Shown piece after piece: positions 1,051 through 28,000 of a stretch of 64,000 nucleotides of DNA. A program made the position numbers and the translations under genes. The notes beneath the pieces are model-generated. The model was not told the DNA's origin. It worked only from the letters and a program-made list of their open reading frames with translations, and did no database searches. The stretch's first letter is position 1. The number at the start of each line of letters is the position of its first letter. This DNA is from Closterium sp. NIES-65 (Eukaryota > Streptophyta > Zygnematophyceae > Desmidiales > Closteriaceae), in contig CANXME010002001.1 of assembly GCA_948144175.1 (NCBI GenBank), positions 62,001 to 126,000 on the forward strand. Direction: 5' to 3'.

Positions 1051-4000
1051 GATAAACACATGATGAGAGGGATAAACACATGATGAGAGGGATAAACACA
1101 TGATGAGAGGGATAAACACATGAGAGGGATAAACACATGAGAGGGATAAACACATGAGAGGGATAAACACCTGAGAGGGATCAAGAGAGGGATAAACCCA
1201 TGAGAGGGATAAACACATGAGAGGGATAAACACATTAGAGGGATAAACACATGAGAGGGATAAACACATGAGAGGGATAAACACATAATGAGAGGGAAAA
1301 ACACATGAGAGTGATAAACACATGAGAGGGGTAAACACCTGAGAGGGATAAACACATGAGAGGGGTACACACATGAGAGGGATAAACACATGAGAGGGAT
1401 AAACACATGATGAGAGAGATAAACACATGAGAGGGATAAACCCATGAGAGGGATAAACTCATGAAAGGGATAAACACATGAGAGGGATAAACACATGAGA
1501 GGGATAAACACATGAAAGGGATAAACACATGAGAGGGGTGAACACATGAGAGGGATAAACACATGAGAGGGATAAACACATGTTGAGAGGGATAAACACA
1601 TAACAAGGACAAACACCTGAGAGGCGTAAACACATGAGAGGGATAAACACATGAGAGGGATAAACACATGAGAGGGATAAACACAAGAGAGGGATAAACA
1701 CATGAAAGGGATAAACACATGAGAGGGATAAACACATGAGAGAGATAAACACATGAGAGGGATAAACATTTGAGAGGGATGAACACATGATGAGAGGGAT
1801 AAACACATGCGAGGGATAAACACCTGAGAGGGGTAAACACATGAGAGGGATAAACACATGAGAGGGATAAACTTATGAGAGGGATAAACCCATGGGAGGG
1901 ATAAACTCATGAAAGGGATAAACTCATGAGAGGGATAAACACATGATGAGAGGGATAAACACATGAGAGGGAAAAACACATGAGAGGGATAAACACATGA
2001 GAGGGATAAACACATGAGAGGGATAAACACATGAGAGGGATAAACACATGAGAGGGGTAAACACCTGAGAGGGATAAACACATGAGAGGGGTACACACAT
2101 GAGAGGGATAAACACATGAGAGGGATAAACACATGACGAGAGAGATAAACACATGTAAGGGATAAACCCATGGGAGGGATAAACACATGAGAGGGATAAA
2201 CCCTTGTGAGGGATAAACCCATGAAAGCGATAAACACATGAGAGGGATAAACACATGAGAGGGATAAACACTAGAGAGGGATAAAGCCATGAGAGGGATA
2301 AACCCATGAGAGGGATAAACACATGAGAGGGATAAATACATGAGAGGGATAAACACATGAGAGGGACAAACACATGCGAGGGGTAAACACATGCGAGGGA
2401 TAAACCCATGAGAGGGATAAACACATGAGAGGGAAAAACACATGATAGGGGTAAACACATGACATAGATAAACACATGAGATGAGAGGGATAAACACATG
2501 AGAGGGATAAACACATGAGAAGGATAAACACACGAGAGGGATAAACACATGAGAGGGATAAACACATGAAAGGGATAAACACATGAGAGGGATAAACACA
2601 CGAAAGGGATAAACACATGAGAGGGGTAAACACATGAGAGGGATAAACACATGAGAGGGATAAACACATGAGAGGGATAAACACATGAGAGGGATAAACA
2701 CATGAGAGGGATAAACACATGAAAGGGATAAACACATGAGACGGATAAACACATGAAAGGGATAAACACATGAGAGGGGTAAACACATCAGAGGGATAAA
2801 CACATGAGAGGGGTAAACACATGAGACGGATAAACACATGAGAGGGGTAAACACATGAGAGGGATAAACACATGAGAGGGATAAACACATGATGAGAGGG
2901 ATAAACACATGGGAGGGGTAAATACATGAGAGGGATAAACACATGAGAGGGATAAACACATGATGAGAGGGATAAAAACATGAGAGGGATAAACACCTGA
3001 GAGGGATAAAAACATGAGAGGGGTAAACACATGAGAGGGATAAACAAATGAGAGGGATAAACACATGAGAGGGATAAACACATGAGAGGGATAAACACAT
3101 GAGAGGGATAAACACATGAGAGGGATAAACACATGAGAGGGATAAACACATGAAAGGGATAAAGACATAAGAGGGAAAAACACATGAAAGGGATAAACAC
3201 ATGAGAGGGGTGAACACATGAGAGGGATAAACACATGAGAGGGATAAACACATGAGAGGGGTACACACATGAGAGGGATGAACACATGAGAGGGGTACAC
3301 ACATGAGAGGGATAAACACATGAGAGGGATAAACACATAAGAGGGATAAACACATGAGAGGGATGAACACATAAGAGGGATGAACCCATGAGAGGGATAA
3401 ACACATGAAAGGGATAAACACATGAGAGGGATAAACACATGATGAGAGGGATAAACACATGAGAGGGATAAACACCTGAGAGGGATAAACACATGAGAGG
3501 GGTAAACACATGAGAGGGATAAACACATGAGAGGGATAATTACATGAGAGGGATAAACACATGAGAGGGATAAACACCTGAGAGGGATAAACACATGAGA
3601 GGGATAAACACAAGAGAGGGATAAACACACGAGAGGGATAAACACATGAGACGGATAAACACATGAGAGGGATAAACACATGAGAGGGGTAAACACATGA
3701 GAGGGATAAACACATGAGAGGGATAAACACATGAGAGGGGTAAACACATGAGAGGGGTAAACACATGAGAGGGGTAAACACATGAGAGGGATAAACACAT
3801 GAGAGGGATAAACACATGAGACAGATATACACATGAGAGGGATAAACACATGAGAGGGGTAAACACATGAGAGGGGTAAACACATGAGAGGGATAAACAC
3901 ATGAGAGGGATTAACACATGAGAGGGATAAACACATGAGAGGGATAAACACATGAGAGGGATAAACACATGAGAGGGATAAACACAAGAGAGGTATAAAC

Positions 4001-4245
4001 CCATGAGAGGGATAAACACATGAGAGGGATAAACACATGAGAGGGATAAACACATGAGAGGGATAAACACAAGAGAGGGATAAACACACGATGAGAGGGA
4101 TAAACACATGAGAGGGATAAACACATGAGATGGATCAACACATGAGAGGGATAAACACATGAGAGGGATAAACACATGATGAGAGGGATAAACACATGAG
4201 AGGGTAAACTTATGAGAGGGATAAACATATGAGAGGGATGAACAC
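1051..4245. repeat. 17-bp minisatellite array, about 188 copies
   Basis: Tandem units of GAGAGGGATAAACACAT, with common single-base variants (GGGGTAAAC, CACCTGAG) and occasional 20-bp units carrying an extra GAT. Because 17 is not a multiple of 3 and the units lack stops in most frames, long open frames appear on the minus strand (VFIPLMCLSLSCVYPSH-type proteins). These are by-products of the repeat. The left edge abuts the broken copia fragment. The right edge is the first base of a hAT element. Three further copies at 20919-20971 suggest that everything between was inserted into or next to this array. Confidence 0.95.
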
Positions 4246-4715: not shown

Positions 4716-6263
4716 ATGTCAACTCCTAGTCCCGCCGGTCATTCTGCTAGTGCCTCCACACCTTCTGCCGGTGGTGTGGAGGGAGAACGCCAGTACGACG
4801 AAATGCCTAACCATCCCGTGTACAAGCATTTTGATTTTACGTTAAGCACCCCACCAAAGGCAGAATGGCGAAATGCCGTTATTGCCCGAAAGAGTTCGTT
4901 TCCAGTAGCACGCATTGCACCGCTCATCTTGCTGATTGGGAGGGGAAGAAGGGTCACGACATTACATTACTGTGTGCCCGGACCGGATGCGCCAAAAGAG
5001 GTAGTAGAGAGCATTCGCACATTGCAGGAGGGAAAATGTAGGAAGCAGTTGGAGAAAAACCGGGCGGAGGCGGCGGCCATGGATGCGGTGAGTGGCAAAA
5101 CCAGCAGCGGGGTGGGTTCTAAGAGAGGGCGCATGTCAGATTTCTATGGGGCGGAGGGGTCAGTTGCTAGGCGTGTGGCGGATGATGCCATATGTCTTTA
5201 TTTCGCAGCATTGGGCGTTCCCGAAAACCAAGCCGACAACCCTCTTTTCCGCAACATGATAAGGGCAGTTGCAGCAGCGGGTGGTAGCTATGTCCCTCCG
5301 AAGAGAAAGTACGTGGGCGGGGCTGGACTGCAGCGGACTCGTAAAAGGATTGAGGAGGGGTTGGATTCCGTGGTTATGAAGTGGCCAGAGAAAGGTGTCA
5401 CCATCGCTAGTGACATGATGAGTGACAGGAATGGGCGTGCGCAGGCGAATTTCCTTTGCGTCAACGAAGATGGAGCTGTGTTTATGGAGAGTGTTGACTG
5501 CGGGATGGAGCGGAAAACAGGCGGTTGCATTGCTAGCCTCATCCGGCCAGTCATAATGAAGGTGGGGTCGGAAAATGTCGTTGCACTATGCATGGATGGA
5601 GCGAGCAACTACGCAGCCGCGACCCAAGAGATTGTGAAGGAACGGCCGCACATTGAGATTGTGAAGGAACGGCCGCACATTGAGATTGTGAAGGAACGGC
5701 CGCACATTGAGATTGTGAAGGAACGGCCGCACATTGAAATTGTGAAGGAACGGCCGCACATTGAAATTGTGAAGGAACGGCCGCACATTGAAATTGTGAA
5801 GGAACGGCACATTGAGATTGTGAAGGAACGGCCGCACATTGAGATTGTGAAGGAACGGCCGCACATTGAGATTGTGAAGGAACGGCCCCACATTGAGATT
5901 GTGAAGGAAAGGCCGCACATTGACATTGTGAAGGAACGGCCGCACATTGAGATTGTGAAGGAACGGCCGCACATTGAAATTGTGAAGGAACGGCCGCACA
6001 TTGAAATTGTGAAGGAACGGCCGCACATTGAGATTGTGAAGGAACGGCCCCACATTGAGATTGTGAAGGAACGGCTGCACATTGAAATTGTGAAGGAACG
6101 GCCGCAAATTGAGATTGTGAAGGAACGGCCGCACATTGAGATTGTGAAGGAACGGCCGCACATTGAGATTGTGAAGGAACGGCCGCACATTGAGATTGTG
6201 AAGGAACGGCCGCACATTGAGATTGTGAAGGAACGGCCGCACATTGAAATTGTGAAGGAACGG
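4716..6263 (+). pseudogene. hAT transposase (BED + DUF659), N-terminal part, broken
   Basis: The gene starts at the ATG giving MSTPSPAGHS, the same start style as the transposase of hAT element 2 (MSTPSGTPAS). The BED zinc finger (CRYCPKEF...HCTAHL) is readable only in the +1 frame between about 4870 and 4975; the main frame resumes at VPGPDAPKEVVES, so there are two compensating frameshifts. Then follow FRNMIRAV, YVPPKRKYVGGAG, the first catalytic region VTIASDMMSD, and the second, VVALCMDGASNY. The homologous protein continues into a CATHVMDLL helix, but here the reading frame passes into 23-24 copies of a nonapeptide repeat and ends in copia sequence. The third catalytic residue and the hAT dimerisation domain are missing, so it cannot be an active transposase. 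Confidence 0.85.
5628..6263 (+). repeat. 27-bp in-frame repeat inside the transposase gene
   Basis: There are about 23 full units and a partial one, each encoding EIVKERPHI, with few variants (one unit lacks a codon; single changes give L, Q or D). The founding unit is recognisable as transposase coding sequence: element 2 has CRELMLEYPHIEHVSC at the aligned place. The repeat therefore grew from host-element codons by tandem duplication. Low divergence between units suggests recent expansion. Confidence 0.95.
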
Positions 6264-8667
6264 CTACAGTATACCCTCTTGGGTGACCATCACGTCTATC
6301 CTTTTGGGTCTTCCTCGGTCTTACGACACGCTTACTGAAACGCTTTGCTCGGTCAAAGAAATAAAGGATATGACCCTTGAGTGGCTCGAGGAACGTCTCG
6401 TGGATGCTGAGTGGGACCGTGCAACAAAGAATTCGTCGCTCCCTGCGGATGGTGCTTATGTCGTTCAACCTGGACCCTCCAAGCCTCATTCCAGCACCTC
6501 TACCACTTCCTGCCGCTATTGCAAGGCTGCTGGTCACGCCATCACCACTTGCCCTCAACTCGAAAAGAAGAAGCGCAGGCAGCAACTACAGCAACAGCAC
6601 CAATCGCCATACCTGCCGCAGTCTACATACCAGCCACAGTCGCAACCGTACCAGCCCCAACAGCCACAGCAGATGCCGTTCCGTTCCCTCTCTCAAAGCT
6701 CGCCCAACAAGGCAGCTGCACACACCGCCCTCCCACCTCTGGCATATCCTGCCCACCTGGCCCAGCCTCTCCTTCCCTCTCCTACCTCTGACGTTACCTC
6801 ACCAGCACTCGCGGCTTCTCATTTGTCATCCACGCCACTGTCATCTTCGATTGATTCTCGCTATGCCGATGTCGCCGCCGCGCACTTACTCCCTACCTCT
6901 TGGCTGCCGTCCCTCCCATCGCTACTACTCCTCATCTCCTTTCTCCTCTGCCTTTTCTCCATCCTGCTCCAGTGGCCTCTCGCCTCCGTCCTCACCAGCT
7001 CTCCTTCTTCCTCCTCCTGGCTCCTTGACTCCGGCGCATCCTCGCATCTCTGCAATGATCCTCATCTATTTTCCTCCCTTCGTCAACCATTTCCTGGTAG
7101 TGGCGTCCGGTTTGGTGGTGGGGAGCAGTACCCTGCCCACGGCATTGGGGACATTTTTGTCTACGCCCGTCACAACAACCATACCCATCCTATCACCCTG
7201 AAGGATGTCCTATACATTCCCCAGACTGTTCATAATATCATCTCTGTTCGTAAGCTGAAAGACGAAGGACTCACTACCCACTTCCCTCGTCATGCTCCTG
7301 CCCAAGTGTTCCGAGGCTCCACGGTTCTTGCTGTCGCCCATGAGCACATGAAGCTGTTCTTCGTTTCTCTCAGCCCTGCCTCATCTTCGCAGCCGGCCAC
7401 GGTCTCAACTGCATCAGCACCTCCTCCTCTTGTTCCCGCATCCTGCTCTGCAGCTTCATCTCTTCTTTGGCATCGGCGATTCGGACATCTCAACGGACAT
7501 AGCTTGAAGCAGCTTCATTCCAAACAGATGGTCAGCGGCATCAGCCTCAACGGTTCTCTACCTTTCACCTGCATTTCGTGCCTTCGTGGGAAGCAAACCC
7601 GCCAGTCATTTCCAGACTCTACCTCGTCCAGCTCAGCCCCACTTGACCTGGTTCACACTGATGTCGCTGGACCATTTCCCATCGGCACCACGTTTGGCGG
7701 CGCCACCTATCTCCTCACATTCATTGACGATTACAGTCGCTATACCACTGTCTACCTTCTCAAATCCCGCTCTGAAGTCTTTAGCACATTTCAGCGCTAT
7801 CTCGCCCAAGCCGAAAGCCACTGCAAGACACATCTCAAGGTCTTGCACTCCGATGGCGCCCCGGAATATCTTTCCGACGCTTTTCAAGCTTTCGTCGCTT
7901 CGCGTGGCATCACCCGACAGGTCTCTACACCATACACCCCGCAACAAAATGGTGTCGCTGAGCGGATGAATCGCACCATCCTTGACATGGTGCGGTGCAT
8001 GTTACATGACAGCGGTCTTCCTCGTGGGTGGTGGGGAGAAGCAGCCCTTACTGCTGCATATATTCGCAATCATTCTCCTTCTCGCTCACTCCCTCGCGAT
8101 GTCACGCATATGGAATTATGGACAGATCAGCGGCCGGACGTCACCCGTTTTCGCATGTTTGGATGCCCTGTCTCCGTGCTTCTACCTACTTTTTATCGAG
8201 AATCCAAGTTACATGACCGCAGTGCTCCCGGCATCTTCCTCGGCTATGGTCTCCTTGATGGATACAAAGCATATCGCGCTTATATCCCCTCCATCCGCCG
8301 GGTTGTCTACTCTCGGGATGTCACATTCCTTGAAACCTCCCCCTCAATCAACTCCCCCTCACCCGCCACCACCTCTACCATCACCCCCTATTCCCGCACC
8401 TGTCACTTTGTCACTTCACCCGCCTTCCCAACCTACCTCCTCACCAGACCCTATCAATCCTCCTCCGCTGCCTGCTACACACGCAGAAACCTCTCCCTCT
8501 GCTACTCCGTCTGCACCTCTCTTTCCCACACTCCCCACCCCTCCCTTCCAGCCTTTCACCCTTCCCACTTCCCTTCAGAAGCCAGCCTCCACACCTACTT
8601 CCTCACCTCTTCTATTTCCTCCTCTTCCAACCCCGACTGCCCAAGACTTTCTGCTCAACTTCTCTGA
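6264..8667 (+). pseudogene. Copia element 1 gag (C-terminal)-protease-integrase
   Basis: The frame reads SILLGLPRSYDTLTETL, a late-gag signature, then a CX2CX4HX4C zinc knuckle (CRYCKAAGHAITTC), a glutamine/proline-rich stretch, and aspartic protease WLLDSGASSHLCND. Next comes a pre-integrase HHCC zinc-binding region (WHRRFGHLN...CISC) and the integrase core with D (LVHTDVAGP), D (LHSDGAPEY) and E (GVAERMNRT). The integrase ends in the usual FLGYG...YRAYIP and RRVVYSRDVTFLE segment. Counting from the GTG at 6283, protease Asp is about residue 249, and the integrase triad lies at about 460, 524 and 560. No Met start exists because the 5' end is lost. After about 8340 the true frame shifts by one (proline-rich linker). 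Confidence 0.9.
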
Positions 8668-10333: not shown

Positions 10334-11930
10334 CTACTTGTACTCATCCTCTAGCTCATCCTCCTCCCCCTCCTCCTCATCCTCCTCCAAAACCTCGTTG
10401 TACCCTTCCGGCAGGGAGGCCTCAGGGATGTTCCCCGGGAGAACCGTCACCCCCTCAGCCCCCTTGTGCCAGTTGCGCACAATGTTCCAATTGTGCGCAA
10501 CATACACGAGGTCCCGACACTTCTCGGACCCCAACCTGTTGCGCTTGGCAGTGTGGATCGATTCCCACACTGCCCAGTTCCTCTCACACGCCGATGCGGA
10601 CACTGGCTGAGAGAGAACGCGGCAAGCGAGCGTTGTTAGCTCGGGGTGCTCCGTCCCGTGCCACGTCCACCACTGGACGGGCGTCTTCTTACCGGCCTTC
10701 ACGAGCTCACGGTCAGAGATGGCGTCGGGTACGCCGAAGCTCCCCTGAAGGGTGTTGAATGCCGTCAGGCCGTCCTGGATGACGTGGGATGCGCGCAGCT
10801 CCTCGCCCTCCTTGCGCGTGACGGTCCGCCCTGCGTAGTGACGAGCGACAAACGCTTTGAAGACGCGAGTACACTCCAGGTCGGTGCGGAAGATGCCTTC
10901 CTCTTGGTTGACCGGGTTGAGGATCCGGCCAACCACGTGCATGGCACACGCCATGCTATGGTCCCAGCGCTTTTGGACGATGTTGGTCACCTCCGTGCGT
11001 TCGCTGCTGGACAGCACCAATCCCGCCTCCTCCTCCAGCTTCGCATTGATGTCTTCCGTGAGCTGCAGCATCAGATCGTACATCCTGCCCATCATGCCCT
11101 TGGCCGTCGAGTCAGTCTTTCGCATGACGGCAAAGGGGATCTTCAGGAGGGCGACGAAGAACTCCGCACCTTTCCACCACACGGCATCCATGATCATGGT
11201 TGCGAAGGGCTCGACCGGAGGCTTCCTCCCCTTCGCCCAAGCCTGCCACTCTGGGCTGAGCACCATCTGCGTCAATGCACTCCGCACCTCGCAAAGCCGC
11301 TGCACCGCGATGAATTGCGTGCCAAATCTGGTGCCCGCCGGCTTCAGCACCTGCTTCCCCTTCCCTCCCTTCACCTGCGGGCTTCGCATGTAACCTTTGG
11401 TGAAATGGTGGGCACGCACAAAGGTAATAATCATCCCCGCCTTAGCCACAATGTCCTTCGCCCAATCCATTTTCCCAATGTCCTCCATGAGCAGATCCAT
11501 GACGTGAGTAGCGCACGACACATGCTCAATGTGAGGATACTCAAGCATGAGTTCCCTACATGCAGCCGCATAATTGCTGCCCCCATCCATGCATAACGCA
11601 ACTATGTTGGCGGGCCCCACCTTCTCAATGATCGGGCGCAAAACGGATGCAATGTAACCTCCCGTCTTCATCTCCAACTTACAATCGATGCTTTCGGTGA
11701 ACACTGCACCGGAATCGTTGATGAGCAGGATGTTGGCTTGGGGATGGCCACTTTTGTCCGTCATCATGTCCGAGCCTATCGTCACGCCATCCCGCTTCCA
11801 GCTCGTAGTGATGGGAGCGAGCCCCCTCTCGATCTTTTCGCGGCAGCGCGCAAGGCCGGCGCCACCAACATACCGCCGCTTCGGGGGAACGTAGCCATGG
11901 CCCGCGTCCGTGATGCAGCGCACAGCGTTG
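10334..11930 (-). CDS. hAT element 2 transposase, C-terminal three quarters (interrupted gene)
   Basis: Read on the minus strand, this is DUF659 followed by the hAT dimerisation domain. Landmarks: AVRCITDAGHGYVPP, KRRYVGGAG, first catalytic Asp (VTIGSDMMTDKSG), ESIDCKLEMKTGGYIA, second catalytic Asp (IVALCMDGGSNYAAAC), HIEHVSCATHVMDLLMEDIG, KGYMRSPQVKGGKGK, RFGTQFIAVQRL, VQWWTWHGTEHPELTTLA, and the catalytic Glu in SASACERNWAVWESIHT followed by KRNRLGSEKCRDLVYVAHN. It ends in an acidic tail at a TAG (10334). The N-terminal part is at 19716-20242; a gypsy element separates them. Joining the parts with one copy of the 4-bp target duplication gives 2124 nt, exactly 708 codons, with no stop or frameshift. 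The gene was intact until the gypsy insertion. As it stands it is split and presumably inactive. Confidence 0.9.
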
Positions 11931-12489
11931 TGTCGCATGACTCTTGCGAATGAGTTCACAAAAGTTCATGAGACAGCTCCTAAGGTGAGTATGGTTGGGT
12001 AAATCGTAAGGGAAGTAGTATTGTTGTATTGTTGTTATAAATTGTACTGTAGAGTGTACGGGTAAGGGGGGGGTTTTGTGGTGATATCAGAATTGTGGCA
12101 GGGATAGAAGAATCGAGGCGGGGCCACTCGAAATGAGGACGGGACGACGGCTGACCTGGCAAGGGCCACCGGTGAAGCGGAAAGGGGACAGGGGTGACGA
12201 GGCTTGCCCGAGTCGCATGCATGGAAAGGAGCCCAAGGGTTGGGCGGTGCGAGAGGTAGTTGGCAGACCCCAAGGCACAGATCCACGAGGGGTGACAGGA
12301 AGCCAAAACTAGCACAGCAAGGACACCAATTCACTTTTGTTTGTCTTCTCGTAATTGTGGGAAAGCTTGTGATTCAGTTGTGATCTCCATCAAGCTGAGC
12401 AACTGCTAGATCCACGCTGGAGAAGCCAGACTACTGCGGCCATTTGTGCCTAGGGAAGGAATTAGCCACTCGCGTCGAGGGTTTCCTTA
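11931..12489 (+). repeat. Terminal repeat A, left copy (LTR-like, 559 bp)
   Basis: It starts TGTCGCATGACTC and ends GGGTTTCCTTA. The same 559 bases recur at 19005-19563. In the left copy the internal leader follows directly (CAAACAAAAGTC). In the right copy segment B2 follows instead. Confidence 0.9.
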
Positions 12490-12717
12490 CAAACAAAAGT
12501 CATGGCGGGCATGTCACTGCGTAGTGGCGCCAAGCTGTCCGGAATGGGAGAACCACCGGAGAAGGAAGGAGTTCCATCGGGGAACGAAGTGGACGAAAGC
12601 CCGGGGGAGAGATCCGATCCCGAGCGAGTAACTGCCCGGAATGACGCCGAGGACAAGGGCCGGCGGGAAGAATGACGCGGAGGCGGTACGACCCCCCGCG
12701 GATCGGGACGATTTGCG
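12490..12717 (+). other. Leader of the methyltransferase gypsy element
   Basis: About 230 bases lie between repeat A1 and the first Met of gag-pol. They contain short out-of-frame open frames, nothing recognised. A TGG-starting primer site 16 bases in (TGGCGGGCATG at about 12504) is possible but matches no tRNA end that I can name. Confidence 0.4.
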
Positions 12718-15700
12718 ATGCGCACTGAGAGAACTCAGGGAGAGCGGTCGCCGTCAGAAGAGCAGGCGACGGTGGCGGGAAGGGGCGGCGCCGCGCCAGT
12801 TGCCAGATCAGAAGGAGGAAGGGGAGGGCAGATGACGCCATCCGGAAGCGGGAATTCAAGACGCTCGCTGTGGGAGGAGGGGTCACGCTACCGATATACT
12901 AGCCTCCCTAAGGTGGAGGTTCCGAGCCGCTTTAGTGGGGATCAAGATTCGGGACCGAGAGTGAAGACCTACGCGATGCATGTGCGGAACGAGAAATACG
13001 GATGGGAGATGGACGGCCTGGATTTAAGGCACTTCTTCAGATCCTTGGGGAACACGCTGGCGGGGGAGGCGGAAGCGTTTTACCTGGAGATTAGGGATCC
13101 GCTGCTGCAGGAGGAAGAGCGGGACGAGGAGGGAAGATTGCTACGGGACGAAGAAGGGAAGCCCATCCGCTTACGGGACCCGACGGAGCGCTTCTTGCAA
13201 GAATTGGCGGCACACTTCCCCACGCAAACGCCGGCCAGGATGCGGGAGTTCGACCAGTTGAGACGAGGTTCACGAGAGTCTCTCCTGGGCTACTATCGCC
13301 GAGTGCATCAGTTGGCGGAGGACATTGGCTGCAGCGAACCACGTATTATAGTAGCCAAATTTTTGGACGGCTTGGCCGGAGAGCTAGCGCGGACCGTGAG
13401 GGATCGGACATACGACTTGGGTCCCAACGCCACGCTGCGACAAGCATATGAAATTGCATGGCGTCATGAGCAGTCCCTGAGCCTCTATGACCTGGGGAGG
13501 AAGACCGATAAGCCGCCCAGGGAGAGAGAGCGCAGGGGAGTCGGCTGGGGTGGGGCCCTACTGGCGGGGGAGGAGGCGGAAGAGGAAGACCAGGAAAGGG
13601 ATCGAGCCTCTAGGAGTCGGACTCGGAAGCCTCGCAGCGCGGCCCACTCTCCTGGAGAAGAGCCAGTCTGTTACAAGTGCCGGGAGCCGGGGCACTTCAA
13701 GAGGGACTGCCCCAAGCTGCAGACCTGTTCCTATTGCCAGAGAAAGGGGCATCAGGCCGATAATTGCTACACTAAGCAACGCGAGCAGAAGGGTCGAGGG
13801 GGAAGGAGAGGAAGGATCGAGGAGCTGGAAGAGGAGCTGAGAAGGCTTCGGGCAGAGGAAGAGGACACAGTGGCGGAAGAGGAAAAGCCAGTCCACGTCG
13901 CAAGGTACGCGGAAGACTCCGACGAAGAAGGACCGGAGCCCATCTTCATGGCGGCAAACCCGGGGAGGGAGAGGGAAGACTTGGGCCTGCGCAGTGGCGC
14001 TACAGACGGCCGAAGGGTCATGGCAACCGTAAGGAGGGGACCGCGAGCAACAGTAGGCGAGGCCGTAGAGGAAGCGGCAGGAGCAGCGGACGAAGCAGTG
14101 CAGCGGGCTGTGGCCCGAATGGGGCCCAGGAGGCACCCGTTTGAGAGGATGGCGGCTCGTCCGTGCGTGGTGGAAGCGCTGGAGGGGACGGTAGCAGTGG
14201 AAGGGAAGTACCCGGGCACAACAATTATCGATACTGGGGCGTCCCAAGTGCTGGTGGGTAGGCGACTAGCCGAAAGGCTGGGACTGCATCGGGCCGAGAA
14301 TGTGACGCCAGAAGGAGTAAGGATTCAAACGGCGGAAGGAGGGGATGGAACATGGCTACCAAGAACCATCCGTCCCCAAGAAGTGGTGTTGGCGCCAGGA
14401 AGGGCCGAAGAGACCAGAATCCGAGTACACTGTCTGGTATCCGACTCGGAAGACTATGACCTCCTGCTGGGTATGGAGCTGCTCTACAAGGTGGGGGCAG
14501 TGGTGGATACATGGGCGGAGAGGGTTACTTACCAGCCGTTGTATTGGGATTCAGAAGCGACCCGCGCCGGAGAAGAGGGAGCCGTCCTACCGGCGCGCTT
14601 TCTGCGAGGAAGGGTGGAGTACCGAGAGCCACATCACCAGCGGGTGCCTGAGCAGCGATGGGAGGATGCAGGAGTGTACCTGGAAAGGGCAGCCAGCCGA
14701 CGAAGAATGGAGGAAGCGGCTGGGGCGAGAGTGGAGGAACTAAGGGAGGCAAGAGGACTGGCCGAACCGGCCTATGACTTTGAAACATTCAATCGGCCGG
14801 TACGGCTGGTGGAATTGTTCGGGGGTATTGGCCCGGGGCTGGCCGCCTGTGTCCGTCTGGGCATGGTGGTGGAGAGGTGGACATACGTGGAGAAGAACCC
14901 AGAGGTCCGGAGGATGGCGATGCATCATGCGATGATGCTGCACGAGCGATTCCCAGACAAGCTATCCAGAGACGTAGTCGAGCAGGCCCGGTTGGAGGCG
15001 GAATGGATGAGTGATGTGACGGAGGTGACCGAGGAGGTAGTAGCAAGCTGGGGGCAAGTGGACCTCCTGGTGGCGGGATGGGAGTGTCAGGGCTTGTCCA
15101 GAGCAGGGAGAGGGAGAGGATTAGAAGACCCCAGAACGGCTCTATTCCAAGAATTAATTCGGGTGATGAAGCTGATAAAGCGAAGGCAAGGCCCGTTCTC
15201 TTACGTGGTGGAGAATCTTGACGTGGCAGACGATGAGAGGACCTTGGTGAAGGAGGCGCACCGGGCGGTCACGCGGGAGCTGGGCCATGGGGTGGCATGG
15301 GACGCAGCACAGATGGGTGCTCGGGCACATCGGATCCGGCGGTATTGGCAGAATATGGTGCCAGAACCAGTACTGAGAGACCAGCTGGGTCGGATGAGAC
15401 GGCCACTACCCCTGCTGGTGCAGGATATCCTGGAACCGGGGAGGAGAGTGGCCCCAGTGGTCAGCCCGGACACAAGGACGCAGTACCCGTGTAACGAGGT
15501 GGGGGCACCACGGCAGGCCTGGCCAACGCTGGTGTCGACCCCGGGGAGCTATGCCTTCACCATGAAGGGGGATGAACCGGGGCCGGGAATGGTGCAAGTG
15601 CTGGCGACGGGGGAGTGGGAGGAGCCTCTAGCAGTGGAACGCGAGAGAGCCATGGGATATCTGCGAAACGCGACGGCGGCGGAAGGGGTGTCAGAAGAAA

Positions 15701-18700
15701 TGAGGCAGCAGGCGCTGGGTGGAGCTATTGATCAACATGCCTTGGGATGGTTGTTGTATCGCGCTGAAAAGAGGCATGAAACGCTGAGAGCGCAGCTGCT
15801 CATGCTGCATAGGTACAGGGACTACATGGAGATGATGGACACGGAACCGGAAATGGCGATGGAGGTGGCGGCTCAGTGGAGGCAATCGGCAGTAGAACAG
15901 AGGGAGGAGAGAGCGCGAGAAGAGGACCAGTTCAACAGTCAAGGGATGGTATTGATGGCGAAGGGAGCAAGGGCGGAGAAGGAGAACAGGGAAGGAGAAG
16001 TAGAAGGAAGAGAGGAGGCACCGGTGGAGGGAGCACAGGACGGAGCCGGGGAGTGGAAAATGGGGGACGGTCTTAACGAGGGGCAGAAGGAGAAGATGAG
16101 GAGAGTGCTGGAGGCAGCCAGAGGGGCATTCGCATTTTCTGTGAAGGAGTTAGGCAAGTGTAACCGGGCAATGCTGGACATAGAGCTGCAGTGCCCAGAG
16201 CCAGTGTACCAGAGACGGAGACGGATGAGTCCTGGAGACCGAGACATCGCGGAGGAGAAGTGCAAAGAGCTGCTGGAGGCGGGGTTAATCAGGGAATCCA
16301 CCTCCGAGTATGCAGCAGCAACCGTGGTGGCAGCACGCAAAGACCTAACAGGAGAGACGATATCAAGGCGGATGTGCGGTGATTACAGGGGATTGAATAG
16401 GGTAACCAAGTGCGATCGCTATCCCATGCCGGTGGTTGAGGAGCTCTTTGACGAGTTGTCGAAGGGACGGGTATATACCACACTGGACCTCAGACAAGGC
16501 TTCAATCAAATACCCATCCGAGAAGCAGATAAGCATAAGACGGCCTTCCATGGTCCCGACAAATTGTACGAATGGAATTACATGCCATTCGGCTTGAAGA
16601 ATGCGTCAGCACGATTTCAGAGGGTCATGGACCAGGTGCTTCAGGACCTGCCGTGCGCCCTCTGCTACATAGATGATGTGATCATCTACAGCACTGATGG
16701 GGAGCAGCATGTGGAGGATGTGGCCAGAACACTGAAGGCCATAGAGGCGGCTGGGCTGACATGCCATCCCGGCAAGTGCACCTTTGGGGTACGGACGGTA
16801 GGGTATCTCGGGTTCCAAGTGGGAGAGGGCGGAATGACGGTACAGCAAGCCAAGGTGGAAGTAGTGGACCGCCTGCAGCAGCCGACCGACCGAAGCACCC
16901 TGAGAGCGCAGCTAGGCTTCCTAAATTACTACAGGAAGTTCATCCCGAACTTCAGCAGGACGGCGAAGCCACTGAATCTGCTGCTAAGGGAGGACGTAGC
17001 ATGGGAGTGGAAGGAGGAGCAAGATGCTGCCTGGAGGGTGCTGAAGGAGGCAGTGAAAACCGCCCCTGTACTGCGGCTGCCAAGACAGGATGAACCCTTC
17101 CTGCTATACACTGACTGGAGCAGCGGGGGGTTGGGAGCGGTGCTGTGCCAATTGGAAGAAGGCGTGGAGCGGGTGGTGGCGTACGCCAGTCGTTCCTGCA
17201 GCCCAGCAGAAAGTAACTACAGCTCTTACGAAGGAGAGGGGTTGGCAGCTGTGTGGGCAGTGGAGTTGTTTAGACCCTATCTCCAAGGGAGGAAGTTCAC
17301 CCTCATCACAGATCACCAGCCCCTCTTGTGGCTGATGACGAATCAGACGTTGAGGGGAAGGAATGCAAGATGGGCTATGAGGTTGCAAGAATTCGATTTC
17401 GAAGTCAGACACCGCCCAGGGAAAACGCTTCAGCATGTCGACGGCCTGTCGAGACAGGGGCCAGCGGTACCGAGTAAGGAAGGAGTGACCCCTGAGGCAG
17501 TACTGGTATACTCAGCAGTAGCCGCGGAGAAAGAGGGGTGGAGGAGGAGAAAGCATGCTGAGAAGGGCTGCGCAGAGATTTGGGAGGATAAACCAGTGCT
17601 AGACTGGGTGCAAGGAGTGGGAGCAGAGGGACTGGAAGTGCCAGAGAGGGTGAGAGCGAGGGGCGTGCACTACAGGTGGCAGGATGACCAGCTGCAGTTG
17701 GTAACAGAGGATGGATGGAGAGTCGTACCCAGACCTGGAGACAGGAGGGATTTGATACTGCAGATCCATACGAAGTTCGGGCACTACGCCGTGGAAAGGA
17801 CCACCCAGCTGCTGCAAACCATGTATTGGTGGCCAGGAATGAGAGGGCAGGTAAAAGGGGTGGTAGCAGAATGCGAGCCCTGCAGTAGGAATCGGGCGGT
17901 GCTGGAAAGGAGCAAGGCAGAACTGCAGTCCCTGCCTATTGGGGGCATCGGCTACCGATGGTCATTAGACTTGGCGGGGGAGCTACCTTTGTCCAGGAGA
18001 GGAAAGCAGTTCATCCTGGTGATGATAGAGCACACGAGCAAATGGATTGAAGTGGCGGCTCTGTCGCGTAAGACAGCCGCATCGGTGGCAGAGGCGTTCG
18101 TGCAGCAGGTGTTATGCAGGTTCGGGGCGTGCGGAGAAGTATTGACTGACCAAGGGACCGAGTTCGCGGGAGAGTTTGAGGCATTACTGAAAGAAGCGGG
18201 TATCGTGCACAGAAGGACCTCACGGTATCATCCACAAGCGGACGGGCTGACGGAAAGAATGATTCAGACGTTGAAGAAGGGCCTGAGGAAGTATTGTGAG
18301 GAAGAAGAGAGGCGGGATTGGGACGTGAAATTACCGTGGGTGGCAGCAGGGTACCGTTTCAGCAAACAGCAAGCGTTGAAAAGCTACTCTCCTTACCAGC
18401 TGCTGTTCGGAAAGGAGCCCCTGCTACCCGTGGGAGCTCCTAAGGTCTTAAGAGAGGCGGTAGGAGACGAAGACCCCAACACCTGGGCGGCTGTCGCAGC
18501 GGCCAGGGCGAAGTATCTCCGGTCGATCATGCCGGCTGCACTGGAGAACCTGGAGGTAGCACAGATGAGAGATGCTCGCCGGTACAGTCAGAGGAGACAA
18601 GGGGGGAAGGAAGTCGTGAGAAAGGACAGAGGGGTGCAAGTAGGGGATGAGGTGTACCTGAGAGAGCGGCGGAAGGACACACTGGAGTGCGGGCTGAGCA

Positions 18701-18939
18701 AAACGAAGTGGAAAGTGCGAGAGCTACGGGAATCAGGGGTGGTTCTTTTGGAGGACTCTCAGGGGAAGAGGGTGAAGGACCATATCTCCAATACTGCTAA
18801 GGCGACAGCATCACGACCTGTGGGCAGGGGCGCAGAGCAGGTCGTGAGGGGGCATGACAGGGGTCCAGAGAGTATCATTACCTATAAGAGACGAGGAGGA
18901 GGTGTGCACAAGGAAGCGGGGAAGCAGGGAGAGAAGTAA
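12718..18939 (+). CDS. Gag-protease-DNA methyltransferase-RT-RNase H-integrase polyprotein (2073 aa)
   Basis: Single uninterrupted ORF. Gag core about 55-260. Two CX2CX4HX4C zinc knuckles (C318-C331 and C337-C350). Aspartic protease IIDTGAS (D505). Residues about 694-1020 form a C5 cytosine methyltransferase: motif I LVELFGGIGPGLAA (701-710), acidic YVEKNPEV, motif IV VAGWECQGLSRAG with catalytic C790, motif VI VVENLDV (E832), motif VIII-like GARAHRIRRYW, motif IX-like RQAWPTLV, and ERERAMGYL...LGGAIDQHALGWLL near motif X. RT follows with LDLRQGFNQIPI, YMPFGLKNASARFQ and YIDD (1317-1320). RNase H has D1466, E1505, D1532 and D1575; integrase has an HHCC finger and D1751, D1811, E1846. No chromodomain was seen. 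The HRIRRYWQN block resembles DNMT3/DRM enzymes more than DNMT1. The start is the first in-frame Met; a second at residue 39 (12832) is also plausible. By domain order this is Ty3/gypsy. Methyltransferase function is inferred from motifs; similar fusions are known from charophytes and dinoflagellates. Confidence 0.93.
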   Translation: MRTERTQGERSPSEEQATVAGRGGAAPVARSEGGRGGQMTPSGSGNSRRSLWEEGSRYRYTSLPKVEVPSRFSGDQDSGPRVKTYAMHVRNEKYGWEMDGLDLRHFFRSLGNTLAGEAEAFYLEIRDPLLQEEERDEEGRLLRDEEGKPIRLRDPTERFLQELAAHFPTQTPARMREFDQLRRGSRESLLGYYRRVHQLAEDIGCSEPRIIVAKFLDGLAGELARTVRDRTYDLGPNATLRQAYEIAWRHEQSLSLYDLGRKTDKPPRERERRGVGWGGALLAGEEAEEEDQERDRASRSRTRKPRSAAHSPGEEPVCYKCREPGHFKRDCPKLQTCSYCQRKGHQADNCYTKQREQKGRGGRRGRIEELEEELRRLRAEEEDTVAEEEKPVHVARYAEDSDEEGPEPIFMAANPGREREDLGLRSGATDGRRVMATVRRGPRATVGEAVEEAAGAADEAVQRAVARMGPRRHPFERMAARPCVVEALEGTVAVEGKYPGTTIIDTGASQVLVGRRLAERLGLHRAENVTPEGVRIQTAEGGDGTWLPRTIRPQEVVLAPGRAEETRIRVHCLVSDSEDYDLLLGMELLYKVGAVVDTWAERVTYQPLYWDSEATRAGEEGAVLPARFLRGRVEYREPHHQRVPEQRWEDAGVYLERAASRRRMEEAAGARVEELREARGLAEPAYDFETFNRPVRLVELFGGIGPGLAACVRLGMVVERWTYVEKNPEVRRMAMHHAMMLHERFPDKLSRDVVEQARLEAEWMSDVTEVTEEVVASWGQVDLLVAGWECQGLSRAGRGRGLEDPRTALFQELIRVMKLIKRRQGPFSYVVENLDVADDERTLVKEAHRAVTRELGHGVAWDAAQMGARAHRIRRYWQNMVPEPVLRDQLGRMRRPLPLLVQDILEPGRRVAPVVSPDTRTQYPCNEVGAPRQAWPTLVSTPGSYAFTMKGDEPGPGMVQVLATGEWEEPLAVERERAMGYLRNATAAEGVSEEMRQQALGGAIDQHALGWLLYRAEKRHETLRAQLLMLHRYRDYMEMMDTEPEMAMEVAAQWRQSAVEQREERAREEDQFNSQGMVLMAKGARAEKENREGEVEGREEAPVEGAQDGAGEWKMGDGLNEGQKEKMRRVLEAARGAFAFSVKELGKCNRAMLDIELQCPEPVYQRRRRMSPGDRDIAEEKCKELLEAGLIRESTSEYAAATVVAARKDLTGETISRRMCGDYRGLNRVTKCDRYPMPVVEELFDELSKGRVYTTLDLRQGFNQIPIREADKHKTAFHGPDKLYEWNYMPFGLKNASARFQRVMDQVLQDLPCALCYIDDVIIYSTDGEQHVEDVARTLKAIEAAGLTCHPGKCTFGVRTVGYLGFQVGEGGMTVQQAKVEVVDRLQQPTDRSTLRAQLGFLNYYRKFIPNFSRTAKPLNLLLREDVAWEWKEEQDAAWRVLKEAVKTAPVLRLPRQDEPFLLYTDWSSGGLGAVLCQLEEGVERVVAYASRSCSPAESNYSSYEGEGLAAVWAVELFRPYLQGRKFTLITDHQPLLWLMTNQTLRGRNARWAMRLQEFDFEVRHRPGKTLQHVDGLSRQGPAVPSKEGVTPEAVLVYSAVAAEKEGWRRRKHAEKGCAEIWEDKPVLDWVQGVGAEGLEVPERVRARGVHYRWQDDQLQLVTEDGWRVVPRPGDRRDLILQIHTKFGHYAVERTTQLLQTMYWWPGMRGQVKGVVAECEPCSRNRAVLERSKAELQSLPIGGIGYRWSLDLAGELPLSRRGKQFILVMIEHTSKWIEVAALSRKTAASVAEAFVQQVLCRFGACGEVLTDQGTEFAGEFEALLKEAGIVHRRTSRYHPQADGLTERMIQTLKKGLRKYCEEEERRDWDVKLPWVAAGYRFSKQQALKSYSPYQLLFGKEPLLPVGAPKVLREAVGDEDPNTWAAVAAARAKYLRSIMPAALENLEVAQMRDARRYSQRRQGGKEVVRKDRGVQVGDEVYLRERRKDTLECGLSKTKWKVRELRESGVVLLEDSQGKRVKDHISNTAKATASRPVGRGAEQVVRGHDRGPESIITYKRRGGGVHKEAGKQGEK

Positions 18940-19002
18940 GGATTAGAGGGCACAGAGCAAGAGAAGGACGGGAGGGCGGATCCACTGGGAGAGGGTGCGA
19001 CA
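18855..19002 (+). repeat. Repeat B, first copy (148 bp, overlaps the end of gag-pol)
   Basis: It begins TGACAGGGGTCC inside the last 28 codons of gag-pol, includes the stop at 18939 and the short 3' untranslated part, and ends TGCGACA. The same 148 bases recur at 19564-19711 as the outer right end of the element. The junction to A2, TGCGACA-GC-TGTCGCA, is a 16-bp perfect palindrome. Confidence 0.9.
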
Positions 19003-19004
19003 GC

Positions 19005-19563
19005 TGTCGCATGACTCTTGCGAATGAGTTCACAAAAGTTCATGAGACAGCTCCTAAGGTGAGTATGGTTGGGTAAATCGTAAGGGAAGTAGTATTGTTG
19101 TATTGTTGTTATAAATTGTACTGTAGAGTGTACGGGTAAGGGGGGGGTTTTGTGGTGATATCAGAATTGTGGCAGGGATAGAAGAATCGAGGCGGGGCCA
19201 CTCGAAATGAGGACGGGACGACGGCTGACCTGGCAAGGGCCACCGGTGAAGCGGAAAGGGGACAGGGGTGACGAGGCTTGCCCGAGTCGCATGCATGGAA
19301 AGGAGCCCAAGGGTTGGGCGGTGCGAGAGGTAGTTGGCAGACCCCAAGGCACAGATCCACGAGGGGTGACAGGAAGCCAAAACTAGCACAGCAAGGACAC
19401 CAATTCACTTTTGTTTGTCTTCTCGTAATTGTGGGAAAGCTTGTGATTCAGTTGTGATCTCCATCAAGCTGAGCAACTGCTAGATCCACGCTGGAGAAGC
19501 CAGACTACTGCGGCCATTTGTGCCTAGGGAAGGAATTAGCCACTCGCGTCGAGGGTTTCCTTA
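19005..19563 (+). repeat. Terminal repeat A, right copy
   Basis: Same length as, and apparently identical to, 11931-12489. It is followed without a gap by the second B repeat. Identity of the two A copies points to a recent insertion or recent duplication. Confidence 0.9.
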
Positions 19564-19711
19564 TGACAGGGGTCCAGAGAGTATCATTACCTATAAGAGA
19601 CGAGGAGGAGGTGTGCACAAGGAAGCGGGGAAGCAGGGAGAGAAGTAAGGATTAGAGGGCACAGAGCAAGAGAAGGACGGGAGGGCGGATCCACTGGGAG
19701 AGGGTGCGACA
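19564..19711 (+). repeat. Repeat B, second copy
   Basis: Copy of 18855-19002, including a non-functional copy of the last gag-pol codons. Its last base is the outer end of the gypsy element, followed by target duplication GTTG at 19712-19715. Confidence 0.9.
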
Positions 19712-19715
19712 GTTG

Positions 19716-25070: not shown

Positions 25071-28000
25071 TCATGGCGGAGAAGGAGGAGCGCAGAGCCC
25101 CATGGCGCCAAGGAGACGATGGTGGGGAACCTTCCCAAGGGGCTTGGTGAACAGGTCAGCCAGGTTGCAGTCAGATGCCACGTATTCCACCTTCAGCTGC
25201 TCTTGTTGCACAAGGTGACGAATGAAGAAGTGCCGAAGTTCAATATGCTTGGTGCGGGTGTGATACACAGGGTCTTGAGAGATGTGGATGGTACTCTGGT
25301 TGTCACACCAGAGGGTGGGGGCTGACTGAGGGAAGCCAAGCTCTTGGAGTAGGAAGGTGAACCAACGGGCCTCCTGAGCAGCCATGGTGCCTGCGTAGAG
25401 CTCCGCCTCACAGGAGGAGAGGGAGACTGCAGACGACCTGGTGGAGCGCCAACTGACAGTTCCGCTCCCGAGGGTGAAGCAGTACCCCTGAGAGGAGCGC
25501 CGGTCGGTCTGGTCATCAGCCCAGGAGGAGTCTGTGTAACCTTCCAGGCGAGGAGGGGAGAGCCCACCGAGTGTGAGAACGTGGGACTTTGTGCCCTTAA
25601 GATAGCGCAGCACCCGCTTTGCTGCCTTCCAATGAAGATTAGTGAAGCGACCCGGGGCCACGTAACGAGAGAGAACACTGACTGGGTAGGCCAAGTCCGG
25701 TAGGGTGCACATCATGGCGTACATGAGGGACCCAACAAGTTCCGGGTATGGCTCAGAGCAGGCCTCTGGTGTGGGTACAGCAGGAGCTGTAAGGAGGTGT
25801 TGCAGCGGCAGCGGGGTGGCAACAGGTGTGCACAGCTCCATCTCAAACCGCTTGAGCACATTGTCGATGTAGAACTCCTGGGAGAGTGAGATGGTGCGAG
25901 CCTTGCGATCACGAGTGATCTCCATTCCCAGGTAGTGCTTGAGGTCACCAAGGTCTTTCATCTGGAGGGCCTTGCTCAGGGCTGCCTGGACAGAGGTCAT
26001 TTGGGCCGAGTCCTTGGCAACGAGGATAAAATCATCCACGTAGACTAGGATGTAGAATGGCTCAGAATGACGACGGATGAAGAGAGTCGGGTCAGCAGTT
26101 GAGGGGTGGAAGTCCAGGGAGAGGAGGACTTCTTTCACCTTGTTGTGCCATTCGCGAGGGGCTTGTTTAAGGCCGTAGACGGGGCGATTCAGCTTCCAGA
26201 CTGTGTTGGGAGGGAATTCTCCTGGGAAGCCTTCTGGTCTGTCCATGAACACTGTCTCCTTGAGACGTCCTTGTAGGAAAGCGGAGGAGGCATCCATGGA
26301 TTTGATCTCAAAGTCTTCTCGAGCTGCAACATCCATGAGCGTTCGAATGGTGGGAGGTTTGGATGTGGGGGAGAAGATTAGGTCGAAGTCGCGGTACCGC
26401 TGCTGGGTGAAGCCCTTGGCTACGTAACGCGCTTTGAACACCGGTGCCTCGTCTGGGAGCTGTTTTACACGGAACAACCACTTGCCCCCGACGATGTTGA
26501 CTCCTGGAGGTGGAGTCTCGTCATCGAAAGAGTGGTTGCGAGTGAATGCTGCAATCTCCGCGTCCATGGCAGCACGCCATTCGGCAGCATGAGGGCCTGA
26601 GAGAGCCTCTTGGACGGTGAGAGGGATAGGGATGGTCGGGTTCTCCGCGAGGTTGAGGGAGGGTGAGCCAGTGATATCGGGGAAGATGTGTGAGAGCTGA
26701 GGAATGACTGCATGGAGATCACACAGCTCCTCATGCCTGTCTTCTAGAAGGGTAGAGGGCACATCCCCCCCAGCAGGAGGAGGCGGTGTGATCATTGTGT
26801 ATCGAAGAACCATTGCGAGTGGAAGAGCAGCGCGATGGGAGCGGGTGCCATGAGCCACCGGTGAGGAGGGCGGGGCAGGCGGTGTCGGAGAGGGTGACTT
26901 AGGAGGCTTGGGTGGGGGAATGGGCCGCCGGCGGTACGTGATCAGCTCGGGCGACTGTGGGAGAGCGGGTTCCTCTGTGGTGGGGGGAACTGGGGGAGGA
27001 GGTGGGGCCGGAGGGTGGGACCGCCGATGGTAGGTGATAGGTGCGCTCGGAGGGGGCGGCGCAGCGGGAAGTGAGGAAGGTGAGGGGGGGGGCGGAGCAG
27101 CCGCCGAAGACACCGGTGAGGCCGGGTCAGAGACCTCAGAGGGAGATGGTGGGATGGCAGGAGAGGGAGGAGGTGAGGGGGCAGGAGCAGGCGGGAGGTC
27201 GGGAGGCGCGTCAAAGTCTGCCCACACGAGGGAGGGTGGATCAGGGAGAGGGTCCCGTCCCGAAGGGGAGTAGAATGGGCGGGTCTCATCAAAGACAACG
27301 TCGCGGCTCCTGACCAACTGTTGAGTGGAGGGATTGAGGAAGAGGTAGTCAGGTGAGTCGGCGTTGTGCCCAAGGTAGATGCACGTTTGAGTCTTGGGAC
27401 CGAGCTTGCCACCGTTCTGGCGTCGAGCCTGAGGGTTGAGGAGGACATAGGCGGTGCATCCCCAAACGCGAAGAGAGCGAGCAGTGGGCGTTTTCCCGAG
27501 CCAGAGTGTGGTTGGAGTGGTGTCGGGAAGGTGCGGATGGGGGTAAAGGTTGTAGAGGAGGGCGGCGTGGTAGAGAGCGTATCCCCAGAGAGAGTGTGGA
27601 GCGTTGGAGTGGCTGAGGAGGCACCGAGTGATCTGCACTAGAGTGTGGTTGCGGCTCTCAGCTATGCCGTTCTGTTGAGGGCTGTCAGGGAGGGTGAAGT
27701 TTTGCTGGATGCCTTCGGAGGAGCAGAAGGCTTTAAGCTTGTCGTTGCAAAATTCACCCCCCCCATCCGAGTGAAGGCGCTTGACCTTGAGGTCAAAGGT
27801 GGTCTGTGCCTGCTTGACCCACGCCATGATGACCTCTGGAGCCTCAGCCTTAGTGTGGAGGAGGTGAACAGAGACGTATCGTGAGTGGTCATCCACGATA
27901 ACTAGGAAGTAGCGATATCCACCTCGTGCAAGAACAGGGGCAGGGCCCCAGACGTCCATGTGCACTAGGTCCAGTGGTGCCGCTGCGATTGTGGGTGAGG

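Follow-up and report, generated by a model that had tools for sequence, protein, structure and literature searches.

Architecture of the element

The 64-kb stretch of Closterium sp. NIES-65 DNA analysed here (the window; all coordinates below are window positions) carries a Ty3/gypsy retrotransposon with a DNA methyltransferase (DNMT) domain inside its polyprotein. The gag-pol open reading frame (ORF; 12718..18939) runs uninterrupted over 2073 amino acids (aa), and Pfam profiles give the order of its domains: a CCHC motif (residues 317-333), an aspartic protease (14191..14484, residues 492-589, Pfam), the DNMT3-type C5-methyltransferase (14785..15810, residues 690-1031, with the catalytic Cys 790 at 15085-15087), the reverse transcriptase (RT) core (16369..16821, residues 1218-1368, Pfam RVT_1), RNase H (17008..17394, residues 1431-1559, Pfam), and an integrase with a zinc-binding part and an rve core (17740..18234, residues 1675-1839, Pfam; H2C2 at 1675-1726 and rve at 1746-1839), all on the + strand. 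The integrase is of the DDE (rve) type, and the ORF has no Pfam match to a tyrosine recombinase. Neither does it match a Pfam chromodomain at an E value of 0.1, which sets the element apart from the chromoviruses. Among named proteins, the closest (94% over residues 640-1170) belongs to Closterium sp. NIES-54, and identity with the element of Klebsormidium nitens was dropped for this reason; further relatives come from Closterium NIES-53, NIES-65, and Naga37s-1. These data are best explained by a Ty3/gypsy retrotransposon of Closterium that belongs to the charophyte Gypsy-Dnmt3 kind. This agrees with an earlier note on the same DNA, which had pointed to the retrotransposon-captured DNMTs of dinoflagellates and charophytes in de Mendoza et al. 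(2018; PMC5890265).

The earlier note was right on the domain and had nothing on the repeats around it, the target duplication, or the self-primer. The repeats follow the order A-coding-B-A-B, with the target-site duplication GTTG on either flank (11927..11930 and 19712..19715). Repeat A1 (11931..12489, + strand, 559 bp), which starts with TGTCGCA, is identical to A2 (19005..19563, +), and the two copies of the 148-bp repeat B (B1, 18855..19002, +; B2, 19564..19711, +), both of which terminate in TGCGACA, are also identical. At the B1-A2 join lies a 16-bp perfect palindrome, TGCGACAG followed by CTGTCGCA (18996..19011), the proposed integrase site, and the outer ends of the element are the two halves of this palindrome minus its central GC. 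The A2-B2 join (19563..19564), which differs among copies, is the proposed end-joining scar.

A predicted primer-binding site (PBS), CAAACAAAAGT (12490..12500, +), adjoins the 3' end of A1, and a predicted polypurine tract (PPT), GTGAGGGGGCA (18844..18854, +), lies directly 5' of B1. Because the PBS directly follows A1, the U5 end of the complementary DNA (cDNA) would fall at 12489, which exactly matches the end of A2. The positions of PBS and PPT thus suggest that the long terminal repeat (LTR) defined by reverse transcription is B-A (B1-A2 at 18855..19563, +, 709 bp) and that the cDNA is BA-int-BA; the palindrome (TGCGACA-GC-TGTCGCA) sits inside this LTR, not at its ends. Within A1, the predicted self-primer and start of R, ACTTTTGTTTG (12333..12343, +), is the exact reverse complement of the PBS, an 11-nt match such as none of 2000 dinucleotide shuffles of A contains. 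The predicted 5' end of the RNA is therefore complementary to a PBS adjoining the LTR, which suggests that reverse transcription of the element is self-primed.

Target-site duplications and repeat joins across copies

Copies were sought in the genome, which totals 874 Mb and is split into 2400 contigs, a number of them several Mb long. With the 3' region, 42 matches were obtained (out of 76 candidates, 40 were scored), and the methyltransferase domain gave at least 118 matching stretches, some with stops (118 of the 1418 first-look candidates were scored). We read the ends of 13 full-length copies of the window family, the window among them. In 12 of these 13, an exact 4-bp duplication abuts TGTCGCA...TGCGACA (GTTG, TTAT, TCAA, TCCA, CATC, CGGA, CAGT, ACAC, GCAG, GAGG, CTCA, TCCT); when ends were paired across different copies, they agreed in 0 of 132 cases. 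The copy with TCCT (C1770) has the form A-int-B. Solo A-B copies also carry duplications: CAGG (C2019 and C752, which share flanks and represent one event), AGGA (C811), and TGTG (C1944). For C2335, C1960, and C274, the left end alone was read. The ends of the RT-defined LTR, TGACAGG...CCTTA, were considered as insertion ends and are unsupported by the positions of the duplications in the copies read.

These insertions are recent, given that A1 and A2 differ by 0-2 substitutions within copies (11 copies compared) and are identical over 559 bp in the window. The suggestion of the earlier note that the element may be live holds for the intact ORF and the recent insertion, and does not extend to live status itself.

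The two internal joins of the repeats behave differently. The B1-A2 join is identical in all 12 window-family copies that have A2. By contrast, the 11 copies that possess both repeats show 8 forms of the A2-B2 join: the exact predicted join is found in the window and in C1266p, one base is lost in three copies, and at the far end of the range 18 and 111 bp are missing from the two sides.

The same plan is found in three further families with different LTR sequences, read in one copy each (F76, C802; F53, C343; F52, C2093). All three copies are A-int-B-A-B with CGACA-GC-TGTC at the B1-A2 join, and have 4-bp duplications at the same ends (ACAC, GTAG, and AGCA, respectively). The sequence AGGGGGCA lies ahead of or at the start of B1 in each of them and is kept in four families. 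Their self-primer matches span 12 nt (one G.U), 13 nt, and 15 nt, and start 0, 6, and 3 bases past the matched A1 end. In a separate locus (G000:C995, 460018-475165), three tandem DNMT copies are spaced by exactly 7064 bp, which is the A1-to-A2 distance of F76.

Family F52, whose DNMT is 52% identical to the window domain, provides the largest set of joins: 14 different A2-B2 joins among 16 near-identical copies. Besides C2093, this set contains 15 of the 16 other copies whose 99-100% match extends to the end of B2, C2025 (B-A-B-A-B) being omitted; the choice favours complete copies and sets aside others at 85-95%, and the target duplication was read in C2093. With CTTGTTT joined to GGGAAGCC as the predicted join, the observed forms are exact; +C (twice); +CA; +CAT (twice); +CATA; +CATAGT; +CAA; +CAAT; +CAC; +CGT; +CT; a 4-base loss (C2093); GGGGCA added where TTT is lost; and a loss of 6+3 bases. 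The PBS begins with CATA and the PPT finishes in GGGGCA, and such letters are expected in the joins if cDNA ends with incompletely removed primers get joined. Apart from the join, these copies share 99-100% identity throughout the 3' region searched, so the join is apparently made anew at each insertion. The permuted structure, the target duplications, the invariant palindrome, and the variable join are thus direct observations.

The methyltransferase domain and the surroundings of the element

The earlier note had placed a DNMT3-like domain in an uninterrupted 2073-aa Ty3/gypsy ORF, and Pfam, a PDB search, a profile, and a structural model confirm the domain; the coordinates given in the note are right as well. 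The profile DNA_methylase (PF00145) matches residues 764-833 with an E value of 9e-7 and 29.1 bits, above its cut-off of 22, and a single-sequence phmmer search of the PDB ranks DNMT3A first (E 1.9e-9). Aligned with 12 relatives, the window domain extends over residues 690-1031; C790 is invariant in the 13 rows, as are the Glu of what we take to be motif VI and AHRxR. A profile made from this alignment listed 57 sequences, with DNMT3C/A/B at the top (up to 98.6 bits), followed by DRM (up to 57.5), HhaI (up to 41.3), and DNMT2 (up to 38.8), and with no DNMT1 among the 57. DRM and DNMT2 were consequently rejected as closest kin for their lower scores, and DNMT1 because it is not listed. The AlphaFold model of the domain has a pLDDT of 92.6, and every one of the 50 matches listed, out of 220 in the PDB with an E value up to 0.001, is a DNMT3 entry. 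Hence, among the C5-methyltransferases of known structure, the domain is nearest to DNMT3. The order of its motifs is of the DNMT3 type, unrearranged unlike that of DRM, and the catalytic Cys is present. Presumed motif IV reads ECQ (residues 789-791), and 11 of the 15 sequences aligned, that of the window among them, have this E; the usual motif IV of C5-methyltransferases is PCQ or PCN.

The domain is present and undecayed in the family, as the DNMT segments of 12 other copies are 94% identical to that of the window and have no stop or indel. Against the window, their dN/dS is 0.067-0.083 for DNMT and 0.046-0.063 for RT, values that amount to a single comparison because the 12 copies are near-identical to each other. 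Two more distant copies gave 0.065 (C1977b, with dS close to saturation) and 0.055 (C2335, with one stop and one gap) for DNMT. All these values lie below the Ka/Ks of 0.2 that marks the KnitGypsy-Dnmt3 kind, and such substitution patterns argue that the DNMT3-type domain is maintained by selection.

In the phylogenetic tree, which settles clades and not their deep order, a single clade (100/99) holds the 13 Closterium DNMT rows; the K. nitens rows used, two in number, fall in two other clades (P0064 was left out by the length filter). In P0011, P0013, P0016, and P0017, which form a clade with three more rows (100/99), the DNMT lies between RNase H and integrase. P0013, P0016, P0017, and P0019 are Gypsy polyproteins with a PHD finger and with the DNMT ahead of the integrase, following RNase H in those that have both of these enzymes; their C-terminal part looks, by eye, like a second methyltransferase of the Rossmann type. 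A search of viral contigs with the whole protein found no relative. With the DNMT alignment, at least 600 stretches matched, 226 of which encode a relative; the best 80 of the 226 were kept (best-segment identity of 22-48%), taken as phage methyltransferases, and left unused.

Elsewhere in the window, a 26.5-kb satellite array with a 27-bp unit in about 934 copies spans 34690-61218, and more arrays, with 17-bp and 27-bp units, lie at 1063-4245 and 5628-6264 (all from TRF). An open copia-type ORF of 1532 aa (25071-29669, - strand) matches gag, integrase, and RVT_2, and hAT-type transposase pieces (DUF659, Dimer_Tnp_hAT) are found at 4716-6338, 10334-11959, and 31460-32314, the second being an ORF that overlaps the left end of the element.

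Routes of insertion

We think it quite probable that the window holds a recent insertion produced by self-primed reverse transcription, joining of the cDNA ends, and entry by the DDE integrase via the U3 palindrome. The RNA would begin inside A and fold back as its own primer, and the usual course of reverse transcription would give a linear cDNA with B-A LTRs at both ends. The two ends would then be joined to each other, either as a 2-LTR circle or during insertion, and the integrase would act on TGCGACA-GC-TGTCGCA as an att-like palindrome in U3, inserting with a 4-bp target duplication. The product would be a circularly permuted provirus, A-int-B-A/B, in which the slash marks the end-joining scar. 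Its transcript would yield BA-int-BA again, so that the form would be stable over cycles and the join would not be inherited. In this sequence of events, self-priming, the circle or its equivalent, and the integrase as agent are the steps that we infer. Most likely, the putative DNMT3-type enzyme would methylate CG in the new cDNA while the latter is extrachromosomal.

Several steps resemble those of known systems. Self-primed reverse transcription is described for the Tf1/sushi/Tcn1 elements (PMC6317226), to which the Closterium element is alike in its self-primer arrangement, as judged by complementarity, and from which it differs by the lack of a chromodomain match, the permuted insertion, and the DNMT. 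The integrases of PFV and HIV-1 cleave palindromic 2-LTR junctions, which arise by end joining, and offer a parallel to the DDE integrase that we propose to act on a palindromic junction in Closterium; however, that literature mostly terms the circles dead ends (PMC1180852, PMC4372172, PMC5314604), the viral palindrome is the LTR-LTR junction whereas that of Closterium lies within U3, and in Closterium the permuted insertion is the form commonly met in the genome. The KnitGypsy-Dnmt3 element of K. nitens (de Mendoza et al. 2018, PMC5890265) shares with ours a Gypsy pol with rve integrase, a Dnmt3-type domain, DIRS-like repeats, and purifying selection. In contrast, Closterium has at least four LTR families, and its permuted insertion, target duplications, and scars have no counterpart in the parts of PMC5890265 that we covered. 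A 2025 survey also reports DNMT3 in streptophyte retrotransposons (PMC12344493). The Gypsy-Dnmt3 kind and the A-coding-B-A-B repeats were therefore already known, and what is new is the meaning of the repeats. We found no description of this insertion mode in titles and abstract openings (few of them from subscription journals) on methyltransferase elements of Closterium or of the Gypsy group, on split repeats, on permuted Gypsy elements, and on 2-LTR circles.

Several points weigh against the proposed route. All the DNA comes from one genome. If a circle were opened at either palindrome, half of the products should be A/B-A-int-B, and none was found among the 13 full-length copies (12 with A2 and one A-int-B); this suggests that the 5'-LTR palindrome is preferred, or that the linear cDNA is cut there and its ends are joined afterwards. 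One copy (C550) has lost B2 and has no readable duplication, the locus of another (C1792) is rearranged or misassembled, which gives its CATC less weight, and the duplication of an older full-length relative (C1977b) matches at 3 of 4 bases. Outside the F52 set that was read, five 100% matches do not extend past the end of A2 (C2299, C21, C501, C106, C863) and four 94-95% matches span A-B alone (C1652, C2292, C535, C255); any of these nine may represent an ordinary insertion by the U5 end, a deletion, a solo A-B, or A/B-A-int-B. Finally, there is no clear CpG depletion: the observed/expected ratio of the element (0.75) is slightly below those of two neighbouring stretches (0.77 and 0.82) and above that of the copia ORF (0.64). 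As a sign of self-methylation or of altered silencing, both put forward as possible in the earlier note, this ratio lends no clear support.

Two of these F52 loci, C21 and C863, have more B pieces nearby, inverted or shortened. In C21 (G000:C21:1079239-1080113), an inverted B piece lies no more than a few bases past the A2 end and perhaps came from end joining to another molecule.

The role given to the methyltransferase is open to a rival that we hold possible and, on balance, doubtful: the enzyme could be catalytically dead, or act on RNA rather than cDNA. The ECQ in place of PCQ/PCN and the lack of a clear CpG depletion would fit, as would the K. nitens domain, which produced no methylation in yeast in an inconclusive assay (PMC5890265). 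The invariance of Cys790, motif VI Glu, and AHRxR, and the dN/dS of about 0.07, speak against it.

As for the route itself, integration might have come first, which seems unlikely to us. The integrase would cut the 5'-LTR palindrome of a linear cDNA and insert both halves into the target, and the host, in mending the broken chromosome, would join the free U5 and U3 ends. The same product, duplications, and scars would follow, and the one-sided products could be explained by the distance of the palindromes from the cDNA ends, about 150 bp for the 5' LTR and about 560 bp for the 3' one. Yet the molecule inserted would need to have two loose ends, for which no precedent is known to us, no search having been aimed at one.

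DIRS elements have a circular intermediate, and in a replication of their type RT itself would make the split direct repeats and a tyrosine recombinase would insert the circle. A-coding-B-A-B is indeed the DIRS repeat order, as was remarked for K. nitens, and SymbioDIRS-Dnmt3 has both such repeats and a methyltransferase in its polyprotein (PMC5890265). This origin is nevertheless very improbable for the Closterium element, which encodes a DDE integrase, has no tyrosine recombinase match, carries 4-bp target duplications where DIRS insertions have none, and does not copy its A2-B2 join faithfully. Equally hard to credit is that a linear LTR element integrated in the ordinary way and was later rearranged (by tandem insertion, unequal crossing over, or gene conversion), or that the assembly is in error: such an origin would suit the odd loci C1792, C2025 (B-A-B-A-B), and C995 (with its 7064-bp spacing), and the five F52 matches ending at or before the A2 end, but the same plan with exact duplications recurs at 12 sites of one family (including C1792) and in the single copy read of each of three other families, and rearrangement would place neither duplications at the palindrome halves nor PBS/PPT letters in the join.

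Insertion of end-joined cDNA via the U3 palindrome thus remains our preferred account. The status of 2-LTR circles as integration precursors has reportedly been debated since Panganiban and Temin in 1984, and in this genome an end-joining scar seems to lie inside many insertions that are apparently natural and recent. Such a route would explain why a Gypsy element has 'DIRS-like' repeats, and it connects both groups of retrotransposons that bear methyltransferases through a circular stage that they may share. More tentatively, and with the odds in our judgement against it, a lineage with a DDE integrase may regularly enter the genome via end-joined circles opened at a U3 palindrome, its captured DNMT3 acting on the circular episome. 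If this were true, DIRS elements and these Gypsy elements would have acquired their methyltransferases convergently, as equipment for a circular cDNA stage.

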